Below are positions 8,063-15,596 of a DNA stretch of 64,000 nt, piece after piece. Made by a program: the position numbers and the translations under genes. Position 1 is the stretch's first letter. Each line of letters begins with the position of its first letter. The notes under the pieces were generated by a model that saw only the letters and a program-made list of their open reading frames with translations, did no database searches and was not told where the DNA came from. Source of the DNA: an uncultured Clostridia bacterium (GTDB taxonomy: Bacteria > Bacillota > Clostridia > UBA1381). The DNA lies in NCBI GenBank assembly GCA_947631235.1, contig CANRKO010000003.1, forward strand, positions 69,193 through 133,192, read 5' to 3'.

Positions 8063-8566
8063 ATGTCCGTAAATAAGATAACCTTCACAATAAATTCGCG
8101 CAGCTACACGGTCGTTGCCGAGGAGACGACCGAGTACCTCGAAAAGCTGTGCGCGCACGTGAACGAAAAGGTGGAAAACGTTTTGCGGGGAGGACAGAAC
8201 ATAATGGGCGAGCGTCCGCTTGTTCTCGCCGCGCTCAACATCTGTGACGAGTACTATAAGCAGCTTGAAAACAACGACGCCCTGAAAGAAAGGGCTGCCG
8301 AGCTTAAAGAGAAAAACGGCAGGCTCGAACGTGAGGCGGAACACGCGCAGGAAGAGCTTGACATGGTTAAAAGCGGACAAGTTTCGATCGACGAGGCTGC
8401 CATGCGCGCCGAGGTGAGCGACGCGAACGAAAAACTGAGCGGCGCGAACAACAAAATTAAATTCCTCGAAGGACAGGTAAAGAGTTTAAGGGAAAAAATC
8501 GCGGAGCTTGAAGAGCGCGACAGAAAGCGCGAGCAGGACTTTCTCGATTTGATAGACAAGCAGTAA
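8063..8566 (+). CDS. zapA: Cell division protein ZapA with long C-terminal coiled coil
   Basis: N-terminus MSVNKITFTINSRSYTVVAEETTEYLEKLCAHVNEKV and PLVLAALNICDEYYK match ZapA; Glu/Lys-rich coiled-coil tail. Confidence 0.82.
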   Translation: MSVNKITFTINSRSYTVVAEETTEYLEKLCAHVNEKVENVLRGGQNIMGERPLVLAALNICDEYYKQLENNDALKERAAELKEKNGRLEREAEHAQEELDMVKSGQVSIDEAAMRAEVSDANEKLSGANNKIKFLEGQVKSLREKIAELEERDRKREQDFLDLIDKQ

Positions 8567-10506
8567 TGGCTATGGAATTACTCGCGCCGGCGGGAAACGG
8601 GGCGGCTGTACGTGCCGCGGTGCAGTCGGGCGCGGACGCGGTGTATATAGGCGGAAAAAGTTTCGGGGCAAGGCGCGCGGCGCAGAATTTTACCGCCGAC
8701 GAAATAAAAGAACAGACCGATTACTGCCACCTGTACGGCGTGGACGTGCATGTGACGGTCAACACGCTCGTAAAGCAGCGCGAAATCGGAGAACTGCAAA
8801 CGTTCGTGAAGGAACTTAACGACGCGCATGTGGACGCGCTTATCGTGCAGGATTTGGGCGCGGCGGAGATTATAAAAAATACCTGTCCCGACCTCACGCT
8901 CCACGCCAGCACGCAGATGTCCGTGACAACGGCTGACGAGGTAAAGGAGCTTGCGCGTCTCGGATTTTCGCGCGTGGTACTCGCGAGAGAATTAAGCTGC
9001 GATGAGATTGAGAATATATGCCGCATGTCGCCGATTGAGATAGAGGTGTTCGTACACGGCGCGATATGCCAGTGCTACAGCGGCAAGTGTCTTATGTCAA
9101 GCATACTCGGCGGCAGGAGCGGCAACAGAGGCGCGTGCGCACAGCCGTGCCGCCTTCCGTACGAACTTTGCGAGGGACACAAAAGTTTAAAAAACGGTTA
9201 TTTGCTCTCGCCGAAGGATATGGCTCTCATAGACGAATTGGGGACACTAAAACGTATGGGTGTTGCGTCGCTAAAAATCGAGGGGCGGTTAAAACGCGCC
9301 GAGTACGTGTCGGCTGTTGTGGGTGTGTACAGGAAGTATCTTGATTTACTTGAAGAGCATGGGGACACTAAAGTTACGAAAGAGGATATGCAAATTCTCA
9401 CAGACGCGTTTTCAAGGTCGGGCTTTACGGACGGTTACTTCAAAAATAAGCTTGGCGCGGATATGATGAGTTACGCGTCGCCGTCGGGCACGGGGGACAC
9501 TAAATATACGCGTGACGTTGAGGAACAGTGCGCCGAAAACGCGAATGTAAGGAAGATAGACGTTGACATAACGGGGACACTAAAACTCGGCTCGCCGCTT
9601 GAAGTGAATTTTTCCGACGGCGAGGGCAGGAGTGTACGCGCAGTGGGGACACTAAAATCCGAAAAAGCAGTAACCGCGCCGCTTGGTGCGGATAGGCTGA
9701 AAGCGCAGCTTTTAAAACTCGGTTCGACGCCGTTTGTATGCCGCAATATATCCGTAACCGCGGACGAGGGCGTTACGCTGCCGATTAAGGAGATAAACGC
9801 AGTTAGGCGCAAAGCGGCGGAAATGCTCGCGGATGCGAGGGTAAAGCGTGAAAAGGGGCGCGTGAACGATTGCGTCGTGCCGTTGAGCGAGCGCGAAACG
9901 CCCGATAAGATAGAGATTGCCGCGTATGTTACAACAGACGAGCAGCGGCGGGCGGCGGCGGAGGCGGGCATAAAGGTTGAGAGGTTCAGACCGTTTTCGG
10001 GGACACTAAACGCGTACAACTCGCTCACGGTCGATTACCTTTCGAAAGACGGCGTTGTCACGCTGTCGCCGGAACTTAATCTGCGTGAAATTGAGGAACT
10101 TTTACTTCACACAAACGCGGAGACGGAGATAATTGCTTACGGCTCTCTGCCGCTTATGGTGATGAAAAACTGCCCCGTAAACGCGCAGGGAAAATGTCAG
10201 AACGGGAAACAGGTATACAGTCTGCGCGACAGAAAAAGGCGCGTCATGCCGATTATTTGCGACGGCGAGAGGGGAAAGTGCAAAGCGGTTCTGTTAAATT
10301 CCGTGCCGATTTACATGGCTGATAAAGCCGAGGATATAAAAAGATTGAAAATAAATTGTGTGAGATTGTTATTTACTGTTGAAAATTTCTCACAATGTGT
10401 TAAAATAATAGATGAGTACAAACGCGCGTTCGCGGACGGGGAAAAGATCGACGCTCCGCCGGAAAACACCTTCACGAGAGGTCACTTCTACCGCGGCGTT
10501 ACGTGA
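8566..10506 (+). CDS. U32 family peptidase (with DUF3656-like C-terminal region)
   Basis: MELLAPAGNGAAVRAAVQSGADAVYIGGKSFGARRAAQNF; EVFVHGAICQCYSGKCLMSSILGGRSGNRGACAQPCRLPYEL; SLKIEGRLKRAEYV. Confidence 0.93.
   Translation: MAMELLAPAGNGAAVRAAVQSGADAVYIGGKSFGARRAAQNFTADEIKEQTDYCHLYGVDVHVTVNTLVKQREIGELQTFVKELNDAHVDALIVQDLGAAEIIKNTCPDLTLHASTQMSVTTADEVKELARLGFSRVVLARELSCDEIENICRMSPIEIEVFVHGAICQCYSGKCLMSSILGGRSGNRGACAQPCRLPYELCEGHKSLKNGYLLSPKDMALIDELGTLKRMGVASLKIEGRLKRAEYVSAVVGVYRKYLDLLEEHGDTKVTKEDMQILTDAFSRSGFTDGYFKNKLGADMMSYASPSGTGDTKYTRDVEEQCAENANVRKIDVDITGTLKLGSPLEVNFSDGEGRSVRAVGTLKSEKAVTAPLGADRLKAQLLKLGSTPFVCRNISVTADEGVTLPIKEINAVRRKAAEMLADARVKREKGRVNDCVVPLSERETPDKIEIAAYVTTDEQRRAAAEAGIKVERFRPFSGTLNAYNSLTVDYLSKDGVVTLSPELNLREIEELLLHTNAETEIIAYGSLPLMVMKNCPVNAQGKCQNGKQVYSLRDRKRRVMPIICDGERGKCKAVLLNSVPIYMADKAEDIKRLKINCVRLLFTVENFSQCVKIIDEYKRAFADGEKIDAPPENTFTRGHFYRGVT
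9240..10010 (+). repeat. Six exact copies of GGGGACACTAAA inside the U32 peptidase gene
   Basis: Copies at 9240-9251, 9361-9372, 9493-9504, 9573-9584, 9645-9656, 9999-10010. Confidence 0.95.
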
Positions 10507-13508: not shown

Positions 13509-15596
13509 ATGCCTAACAGTAAAGCGAGATTTTACGTTATAAGTACGATAATGGTTCTCATGTTCTGCGCGGTGATGTGGAAGTTGTTTGACTTGCAGCT
13601 TGTGAAGGGCGACCAGTACGTTACGGTCGCGAACGAGCGTCTTACGACTAACATAATCGCGAAAGCTCCGCGCGGGGAGATTTTGGACAGATACGGTACG
13701 CGCCTTGTTTCAAACAAGGTCGGGTACTCCGTTGTGATGCAGAAAACGGATTTGAAGGACGATGAGCTTAACGGTATAATAAAAGAACTTATCGACGTTC
13801 TTTACGCGAACAACTGCGAGTACTTCGACAATCTGCCGATAAGTTTCGCGCCGTATAGGTTTGAGTTTGAGGACGAGAACGAGGACGGCTCGGCAGACGA
13901 CGAGCGCACTGCGTGGTTTTCGTCAAACGCGTCGATGGGCATTAACGAGACAATGAGCGCGAGCGACGTCGTGCAGCTTTTAAAACGCCGCTACAACATA
14001 GGCGCTGAATTCAGCGAGGACGAGCAGCGCAGAATTGCGGGTATACGTTACTGCGCCGAGGTGAGCGGTCTGTCGCAGACGGTGCTTTTCACGATAGCCG
14101 AGGATATACCCGTCGAGGCGGTAATGCAGATAAAGGAGAGGCAGGACGAATTTAAGGGTATATCGGTTATAAACGACTATATACGAAATTACGATATGCC
14201 GGGGCTTGCGACGCACATACTCGGCAGGACGGGTAAGATAAGCGCGAAGGAGTACGAGGAAAACAAGGATCTCGGCTACGGCTACAACGATATAATAGGC
14301 AAGCAGGGCATAGAACTTTGGGGCGAAAAGTACCTGCGCGGCACTGACGGTACGAAGGGTACGACAAAAGAGGTCAACGGCAAGGATATAACGATTTTGA
14401 ACGACACCGAGCCTGTGCCGGGTGATTACATTGTTCTTACCATAGACTCCGATTTGCAGAAGGTTGCGGAGGAGTCGCTTGCAAACAATATACAGGCGAT
14501 ACGCGCCGCGAGTGGAGTAAAGCCTAAGGACGGCGCGGACTGCGACGCGGGCGCGGCGGTGGTGCTCGATATTAAAACGGGCGACACGCTCGCGATAGCG
14601 TCGTATCCGACGTATGATATGTCGCGGTTCGACGAGGATTACGGCTCGCTCGTGGAAAACGAGGCGCGTCCGATGTTTAACAGAGCCGTGTGCGGCACGT
14701 ACAGCCCGGGTTCGACGTTTAAGCCGCTTACGGCGATAGCGGGACTTGAAACGGGCAATATTACCACGAACGAGATAATTGTTGACGAAGGTGTTTACAG
14801 AGTTTACAACGACTACCAGCCCGCCTGCTGGATATGGAACGAGTACAGGCTGACGCACGGCAGACAGAATGTCACGGCAGCGCTTGAAAATTCCTGCAAC
14901 TACTTCTTCTACGAGGTGGGAAGGCGGTTGAATATAACGGTGCTGGGTGAGTACGCGAAGAAATTCGGTCTCGGCGAGCATACGGGTATAGAACTGCCGG
15001 AGGAAACGTCGGGTCACATGGCAAGCCCCGAATACAAGAAACAGGTCGTTACGAACGTCACAAGTCAGGACTGGTACGACGGCGACACGCTGCAGGCGGC
15101 TATCGGTCAGTCGTACAGTCTGTTTACGCCGGTGCAGCTTGCGAATTACGCGGCGACGATCGCGTCGGGCGGCACGAGGCTTAAAGTAAATCTTGTAAAG
15201 AGTATACGCTCGTCGGTGGACGGTTCGATCGTGAAGGAGTTTAATCCCGAAATCGTGGATCAAATCGACATGAAACCGGAGGATATAAACGCCGTAAAGC
15301 AGGGTATGAAGAAGGTTGCCGACGAGGGCAGTGCGGCGGAGGTGTTCGCGAATTACGGCATACAGGTCGGCGGCAAAACGGGTACGGCGCAGGTCGGCGA
15401 CGGCTCGAATAACGCGGTGTTTATCGCGTACGCGCCGTTTGACAATCCCGAAATAGCCGTTGCGGTCGTGCTTGAACACGGCGTCAGAGGCACGAACGCC
15501 GCGCTTGTCGCGAAGGATATTTTCGACGCGTATTTTAAGCTGCAGCCGACGAGTGCGCCGACACAGACGCCGCGGACAACAGATTATGAAGAATAA
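13509..15596 (+). CDS. mrdA: Penicillin-binding protein 2 (elongasome transpeptidase)
   Basis: APRGEILDRYGTRLVSNKVGYSV; SPGSTFKPLTA (SxxK), ENSCNYFFYEVG (SxN), VGGKTGTAQ (KTG). Confidence 0.95.
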   Translation: MPNSKARFYVISTIMVLMFCAVMWKLFDLQLVKGDQYVTVANERLTTNIIAKAPRGEILDRYGTRLVSNKVGYSVVMQKTDLKDDELNGIIKELIDVLYANNCEYFDNLPISFAPYRFEFEDENEDGSADDERTAWFSSNASMGINETMSASDVVQLLKRRYNIGAEFSEDEQRRIAGIRYCAEVSGLSQTVLFTIAEDIPVEAVMQIKERQDEFKGISVINDYIRNYDMPGLATHILGRTGKISAKEYEENKDLGYGYNDIIGKQGIELWGEKYLRGTDGTKGTTKEVNGKDITILNDTEPVPGDYIVLTIDSDLQKVAEESLANNIQAIRAASGVKPKDGADCDAGAAVVLDIKTGDTLAIASYPTYDMSRFDEDYGSLVENEARPMFNRAVCGTYSPGSTFKPLTAIAGLETGNITTNEIIVDEGVYRVYNDYQPACWIWNEYRLTHGRQNVTAALENSCNYFFYEVGRRLNITVLGEYAKKFGLGEHTGIELPEETSGHMASPEYKKQVVTNVTSQDWYDGDTLQAAIGQSYSLFTPVQLANYAATIASGGTRLKVNLVKSIRSSVDGSIVKEFNPEIVDQIDMKPEDINAVKQGMKKVADEGSAAEVFANYGIQVGGKTGTAQVGDGSNNAVFIAYAPFDNPEIAVAVVLEHGVRGTNAALVAKDIFDAYFKLQPTSAPTQTPRTTDYEE

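Follow-up and report, generated by a model that had tools for sequence, protein, structure and literature searches.

REPs are found downstream of genes, between convergent genes and within repair genes (PMC3733652). RAYTs bind REP hairpins in single-stranded form (PMC8266576); they are inherited vertically as single-copy genes, and their function, once domesticated, has been described as unknown (PMC8049555). DNA uptake sequences are short repeated words of another kind, and they are orientation-biased in genes, at about 2:1 in Neisseria (PMC2346458). Here we describe a 12-nt word, GGGGACACTAAA, and a RAYT-descended gene that accompanies it, and compare the pair with these systems.

The starting point was a window of 64,000 nucleotides from an uncultured Clostridia bacterium, in which the initial annotation had reported six exact copies of GGGGACACTAAA inside one U32 peptidase gene. 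All six are present, on the + strand and within a single open reading frame:

8566 to 10506, + strand: U32 peptidase gene (Peptidase_U32 and DUF3656), the reading frame carrying all six GGGGACACTAAA words
9240 to 9251, + strand: word 1, phase GTLK, in residues ...DELGTLKRM...
9361 to 9372, + strand: word 2, phase GDTK
9493 to 9504, + strand: word 3, phase GDTK
9573 to 9584, + strand: word 4, phase GTLK, an old site retained in other genera
9645 to 9656, + strand: word 5, phase GTLK, an old site retained in other genera
9999 to 10010, + strand: word 6, phase GTLN, bordering an in-frame deletion of ~50 residues

The gene matches PF01136 (E 7.9e-87) and PF12392 (E 1.3e-20), and homologues are present in all 61 relatives searched. 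As had also been noticed, the words are read in two phases (9240, 9573, 9645 and 9999 as GTLK/N, 9361 and 9493 as GDTK) and in off-style codons, GGG, ACA and CTA making up 5%, 20% and 2% of their synonymous families (CTA is 1.7% of Leu codons). The window holds no seventh exact copy on either strand and no one-mismatch copy, and 100 dinucleotide shuffles of it produced none; the initial annotation was therefore right that the window has no further copy. The word is not limited to the U32 gene: there are 113 copies genome-wide.

These 113 exact copies (63 and 50 on the two strands, against none of the reversed-word control) make GGGGACACTAAA the genome-wide repeat family that the initial annotation had proposed to look for; the source genome, G000, is a 2.09-Mb Clostridia MAG, 86% complete. 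Ranking of 12-mers and counts of flanks, clusters and orientation were made on 1.24 Mb of G000 read as stretches, with ~100 copies, and there GGGGACACTAAA is the commonest 12-mer (100 observed, 0.13 expected from 6-mers). The same 1.24 Mb contains 100 exact, 28 one-mismatch and 43 two-mismatch copies; since exact copies far outnumber those with one mismatch, and those with two are at chance level, the copies are kept exact, without free decay. Their edges, first described as sharp, are so only in part, with the flanks of 100 genomic copies A-rich and usually ending in C before the word and showing R then Y after it; among copies in coding sequence the first G varies most, leaving GGGACACTAAA as the core.

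The word occurs in 16 of 16 genus genomes (8-151 copies each) and in several sister genera (7-53 copies), with 0-5 copies in others of the family and one stray copy in 40 genomes outside it; reversed-word controls are near zero across 101 genomes. The relatives identified by name are Lachnospiraceae bacterium MD329 and gut Clostridia, uncultured, of rabbit and other hosts. One contig binned in another genus (L266, G033:C59:4400-7500) has the word layout of G000:C1:62973-64496 and a gene 98% identical, and is either misbinned or a recent transfer. Virus-borne copies were considered and rejected, as hairpin and tandem forms of the word are absent from 2.9 million viral contigs, and no published mention of GGGGACACTAAA was found in the open-access papers searched. 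We also note that contigs C1-C5 and C7 of G000 contain other short repeat families of ~20-40 copies that resemble MITE ends, for example GGTCGCCCCTAC, AAACCCCTCAGTC and CCTAGTAGGGGA.

The word is maintained at the nucleotide level. When G000 is compared with its close relatives G005 and G008, substitutions affect 0.4-1.9% of word positions compared with 6-13% of flanking positions. The initial argument that amino-acid selection is insufficient holds when all called genes are considered: GDTK is word-encoded in 26 of 33 occurrences, where codon usage predicts 0.04, and GTLK in 10 of 14, where it predicts 0.001.

How the copies in the U32 gene came about can be read from a codon alignment of orthologues. 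Words 2 and 3 are common to a five-genome subclade (G000, G005, G008, G010 and G011), and G004 encodes the same GDTK at the word 3 site through GGGGACACAAAA, one base off. The word 1 site is found also in G005, G010, G011, G004, G003, G014 and G007, with AGGGACACTAAA retained in G008. Word 4 is exact in G003, G004, G007, G001, G015 and G034, its core is read as ggg-aca-cta-aaa in G018 and G020 and as ggg-aca-cta-aat in G014 and G033, and the site has the ordinary codons gga-acg-ctc-aaa in G013. Word 5 is exact in G004, G003, G007, G006, G018 and G033, and in G061 in a separate alignment. Two U32 sites are retained in other genera at 55-60% protein identity, again with the first G loosest, and GTLK is ancestral at two U32 positions; the remaining sites have been gained and lost within the gene. 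Because the sites align without indels to orthologues with the same or similar residues in ordinary codons, the U32 copies were made by substitution, and neither the insertion nor the gene conversion first suggested is supported for this gene.

A segment of ~50 residues of the U32 protein is missing from G000, G005, G008, G010, G011 and G004 relative to other genus members. Comparison of window positions 9940-10020 with orthologues L038 and L040-L043 places the end of this deletion at word 6, and in G014, G007, G002, G015 and G001 a word lies at the matching distance downstream of a conserved EQ, on the upstream edge of the segment missing in G000, which follows it; the deletion junction is therefore at or next to a word.

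More generally, in-gene copies mostly arose by substitution, and most word sites are common to multiple species. Insertion does occur elsewhere, as net gains of word-bearing units in loops and 3' regions. Arrays gain or lose complete units of 13-19 nt, and GDTK arrays specific to a lineage have been inserted in a rhamnosidase gene and in the U32 gene of G061. Taken with the U32 substitutions, these show that substitution and local unit duplication both take place.

The placement of the word follows transcription. In G000, 46 of 100 copies lie in coding sequences and 54 are intergenic, the latter densest in convergent gaps (1.84 per kb, against 0.32 in tandem and 0.08 in divergent gaps) and mostly 0-50 nt past a same-strand stop codon. 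Sense copies outnumber antisense copies in coding sequences by 43:3 in G000, 21:6 in G061, 9:2 in G067 and 22:4 in G033, and tandem gaps contain either sense-only arrays (six gaps) or hairpins with the word on both strands (four gaps), none being antisense-only. Adjacent pairs are FF (20), FR (14) or RR (14), never RF; the FR pairs are hairpins, 14 among the 100 copies, a form common in G000 and rare in G061 and G067. Copies are tightly clustered: 96 of 99 have a neighbour within 1 kb (15 expected) and 71 of 99 within 60 nt, forming 30 clusters with two singletons in the 1.24 Mb. The word overlaps the stop codon of two genes (C4 100228-102807 and C5b 14840-15544) and supplies that of the second, whose protein ends in RGH as read from GG-GGA-CAC-TAA.

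Carriers recurring between genera, partly with identical sites, are U32, mutL, uxaA, rhamnosidase, trpF and the 3' end of fhs. A single regulon was rejected, as the carriers, though recurrent, are enzymes and repair proteins with no relation to one another. In G033 and G018, what appears to be a cobalamin biosynthesis operon (L260, G033:C16; L277, G018:C5), its genes named from their sequences, has ~16 words over 13 kb, in most genes and mainly sense. Exceptions to the sense rule are four antisense words in one cbiA-like gene (L241, G061:C1:28000-32000) and an antisense copy in trpA conserved in G000 and G033. An antisense small RNA as the reader of the word was rejected, the sole conserved non-hairpin intergenic anti-word being that in the promoter of the RAYT-descended gene, to which we now turn.

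The initial annotation had raised the prospect of a linked Y1/RAYT-type gene, and such a gene was found: it encodes a RAYT-descended protein, bears a copy of the word at the 5' end and follows the word's distribution across genomes.

G000:C2:180626-181162, outside the window: sRAYT gene, a RAYT-like word carrier beginning MKGDTKMARQAREVSKSGNYYV

All 16 genus genomes have sRAYT, as do 10 of the 11 genomes outside the genus that contain seven or more words, hence 26 of 27 word-bearing genomes, a co-occurrence nested in one clade that does not amount to many independent events; the single genome without a detected sRAYT is an incomplete MAG. The short form lacking HuH occurs in none of the 74 remaining genomes; a related short form occurs in genus g15, and other genera have a longer version. 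With one copy in each of the 16 genus genomes (G002 has a second, weak full-length match) and a downstream flank similar among genomes, sRAYT is, as judged from this distribution, single-copy and vertically inherited.

The protein matches RAYT-like relatives of 240-300 aa in sequence, and Pfam PF01797 is detected in 4 of 27 members (best E 0.001). Its AlphaFold model has a confident core (pLDDT ~87), which Foldseek matches with probability 1.0 to the IS200/IS605 TnpA structures 2a6m and 2xm3 and to REP-bound RAYT 4er8 (for the last, TMq 0.52 and rmsd 3.4), so that the predicted fold is that of a Y1/HuH transposase. The HuH motif is absent from all genus members and from the word-bearing genera, with EIR, EID and similar triplets instead, and within the RAYT-descended family HVH occurs only in the G029 and G016 forms; no family member examined has a Y-x-x-x-NP catalytic motif. 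The Collinsella RAYTs L304 and L305 retain HVH and YIHDNP, and a GGGGACG...CGTCCCC hairpin lies on the 3' side of L304. As sRAYT lacks these catalytic residues, it is unlikely to copy the word actively. An active Y1 transposase as the driver was likewise rejected, PF01797 matches not tracking with the word.

The sRAYT tail is rich in K, E and P and terminates in LPSWLL, and the relatives of 234-277 aa in other genera of the family, with motifs partly lost, end mostly in SVWLL. This near-invariant C-terminal WLL tail (LPSWLL, LSVWLL), which follows a variable linker (L181-L207, L312-L331), resembles a docking peptide for a partner protein.

Upstream of most sRAYT genes there is a conserved TTTAGTGTCCC (or TTTTTGTGTCCC) followed by a -10-like sequence similar to TGTGNTANAAT, and the word lies antisense upstream of that -10-like sequence; this antisense promoter word is conserved across genera. 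In many sRAYT genes a sense word or near-word, GGGGACACTAAA or GGGACAGTAAA, abuts the start codon and overlaps the ribosome-binding site, in the place expected of a Shine-Dalgarno sequence, most clearly as aaggaGGGACACTAAATG in G009. This 5' anatomy is what one would expect of a self-repressing protein that reads the word. Alternative dialects predicted from promoters of the RAYT gene in other genera, GGGGACACAAAA and GGGACATAAAA, were tried and showed only mild family-wide enrichment, with no strongly enriched genome-wide word in those genera.

The word-sRAYT pair resembles REP/RAYT systems (TnpA-REP, 'REPtrons') in having a single-copy, vertically inherited gene of RAYT lineage with its own repeat at the 5' end, and repeats of high copy number that are extragenic in 54 of 100 copies, lie mainly downstream of genes and in convergent gaps, enter some repair genes and in some cases supply a stop codon. 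It differs in that sRAYT has lost HuH and the catalytic Tyr helix, and in that the coding copies are substitution-made and held exact across genera. The repeat itself is a linear 12-mer and not an obligate hairpin with GTAG/CGTC: it is not the 20-40 bp palindrome with a 5' GTAG/CGTC tag that characterizes REPs, and no such tag appears in the word or in the flank consensus of 100 G000 copies. The pair is best filed with REP-RAYT systems, without counting the words as REPs. Rickettsia palindromic elements are also tolerated inside reading frames; those are long insertions, whereas here 12-nt substitutions occur in two phases. Regulators of the CsrA/RsmA type and the 12-nt ops element of RfaH provide examples of motifs acting at the transcript level. 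The word resembles these in lying on the transcript strand, with several sites per message and one at the regulator's own ribosome-binding site, but it is found mainly in coding sequence and 3' ends and not in leaders, and we know of no CsrA/RsmA- or RfaH-type family related to RAYTs.

The link between gene and word is drawn from co-occurrence and gene anatomy, and we put at slightly less than even the chance that GGGGACACTAAA is the cognate motif of a domesticated, catalytically dead sRAYT and acts at the transcript level. The broader reading, that a transposase lineage stripped of DNA cleavage became a cell-wide regulator reading a 12-nt word that dozens of unrelated mRNAs carry in their coding sequences and 3' ends, in two reading phases and at its own ribosome-binding site, is offered more tentatively. 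sRAYT would keep the hairpin or single-strand binding surface of RAYTs and recognize the word either in mRNA or in the non-template strand while transcription leaves it exposed; that it may bind RNA or single strands is suggested by the binding of RAYTs to single-stranded REP hairpins (PMC8266576). With several sites per message, binding could be cooperative and control the stability, termination or translation of that message, and the same word might let sRAYT repress its own synthesis. Point mutation would create new sites wherever GTLK/N or GDTK is tolerated in the protein, small duplications of the unit would add others in loops and 3' regions, and selection would then retain them. Sense bias alone is no proof of a role in RNA, as uptake sequences are also orientation-biased in genes (PMC2346458), and the conserved antisense copies, the mild enrichment of dialects and the lack of a common pathway among carriers count against the explanation by sRAYT.

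A rival reading is a double-stranded DNA site, bound by sRAYT or another protein in chromosome organization or as a transcription factor site. The antisense word that overlaps the sRAYT promoter across genera, and the occurrence of both orientations in genes, are in keeping with it. Such a site would hardly be expected to nearly avoid divergent promoter gaps, to be so strongly oriented with transcription or never to form adjacent RF pairs, and we regard this explanation as unlikely.

It is rather improbable that GGGGACACTAAA serves as a signal for DNA uptake in the manner of the DUS of Neisseria or the USS of Haemophilus (Pasteurellaceae), with competence machinery preferring DNA that carries it and copies accumulated and refreshed by recombination of taken-up fragments. 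We know of no uptake signal in Gram-positives. An exact, short, lineage-limited 12-mer made by substitution at permissive coding positions, with inverted pairs after genes, would nevertheless fit, as would an orientation bias within genes (PMC2346458), although the bias of the word exceeds the ~2:1 quoted for Neisseria in the same source. ComEC was found in the word-bearing genus, but is equally present in relatives without the word. Uptake sequences run to hundreds or thousands of dispersed copies, ~1,500 spread through a genome, whereas the word has just ~113, roughly an order of magnitude fewer, and is tied to a RAYT-descended gene; this reading is weakened by the small number of copies, by their tight clustering and by how nearly they avoid promoter gaps, with divergent gaps almost word-free.

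A similarly low probability attaches to the words being a mobile, REP-like family that a RAYT continues to copy, with tiny insertions spread by transposition. The RAYT-descended gene has flanking words, arrays gain and lose 13-19 nt units, GDTK arrays are inserted in the rhamnosidase and U32 genes of other lineages, and the word shares with REPs a position after genes, between convergent genes and within repair genes (PMC3733652), here mutL. However, sRAYT has neither HuH nor the Tyr helix, Y1_Tnp proteins are absent from many word-rich genomes (e.g. G011, G006 and G004), the U32 words replaced residues without an indel, most sites are common to several species, and the unit is a linear word, with hairpins common in G000 and rare in G061 and G067. 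Finally, chance, protein-level selection for GTLK/GDTK or an assembly artefact, the last having been raised at the outset, can be dismissed almost entirely: nothing beyond the ancestral GTLK at two U32 positions favours them, the codon-level excess is hundreds-fold, reversed-word controls are near zero in 101 genomes, and independent assemblies from different projects carry the word.

To return to sRAYT, the proposed reader of GGGGACACTAAA: the protein has lost its cutting function, yet across genera the word is conserved much more tightly than the sequence around it. Together these imply a host-serving function separated from transposition, in which any retained role must lie in word binding; the candidate target would be GGGGACACUAAA as RNA or GGGGACACTAAA as single-stranded DNA. 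If true, this would be an unusual case of nucleotide-level selection in coding DNA that dictates amino acids such as GDTK across unrelated proteins, and it suggests that a transposon relic has turned into a cell-wide, probably RNA-level, regulatory code.
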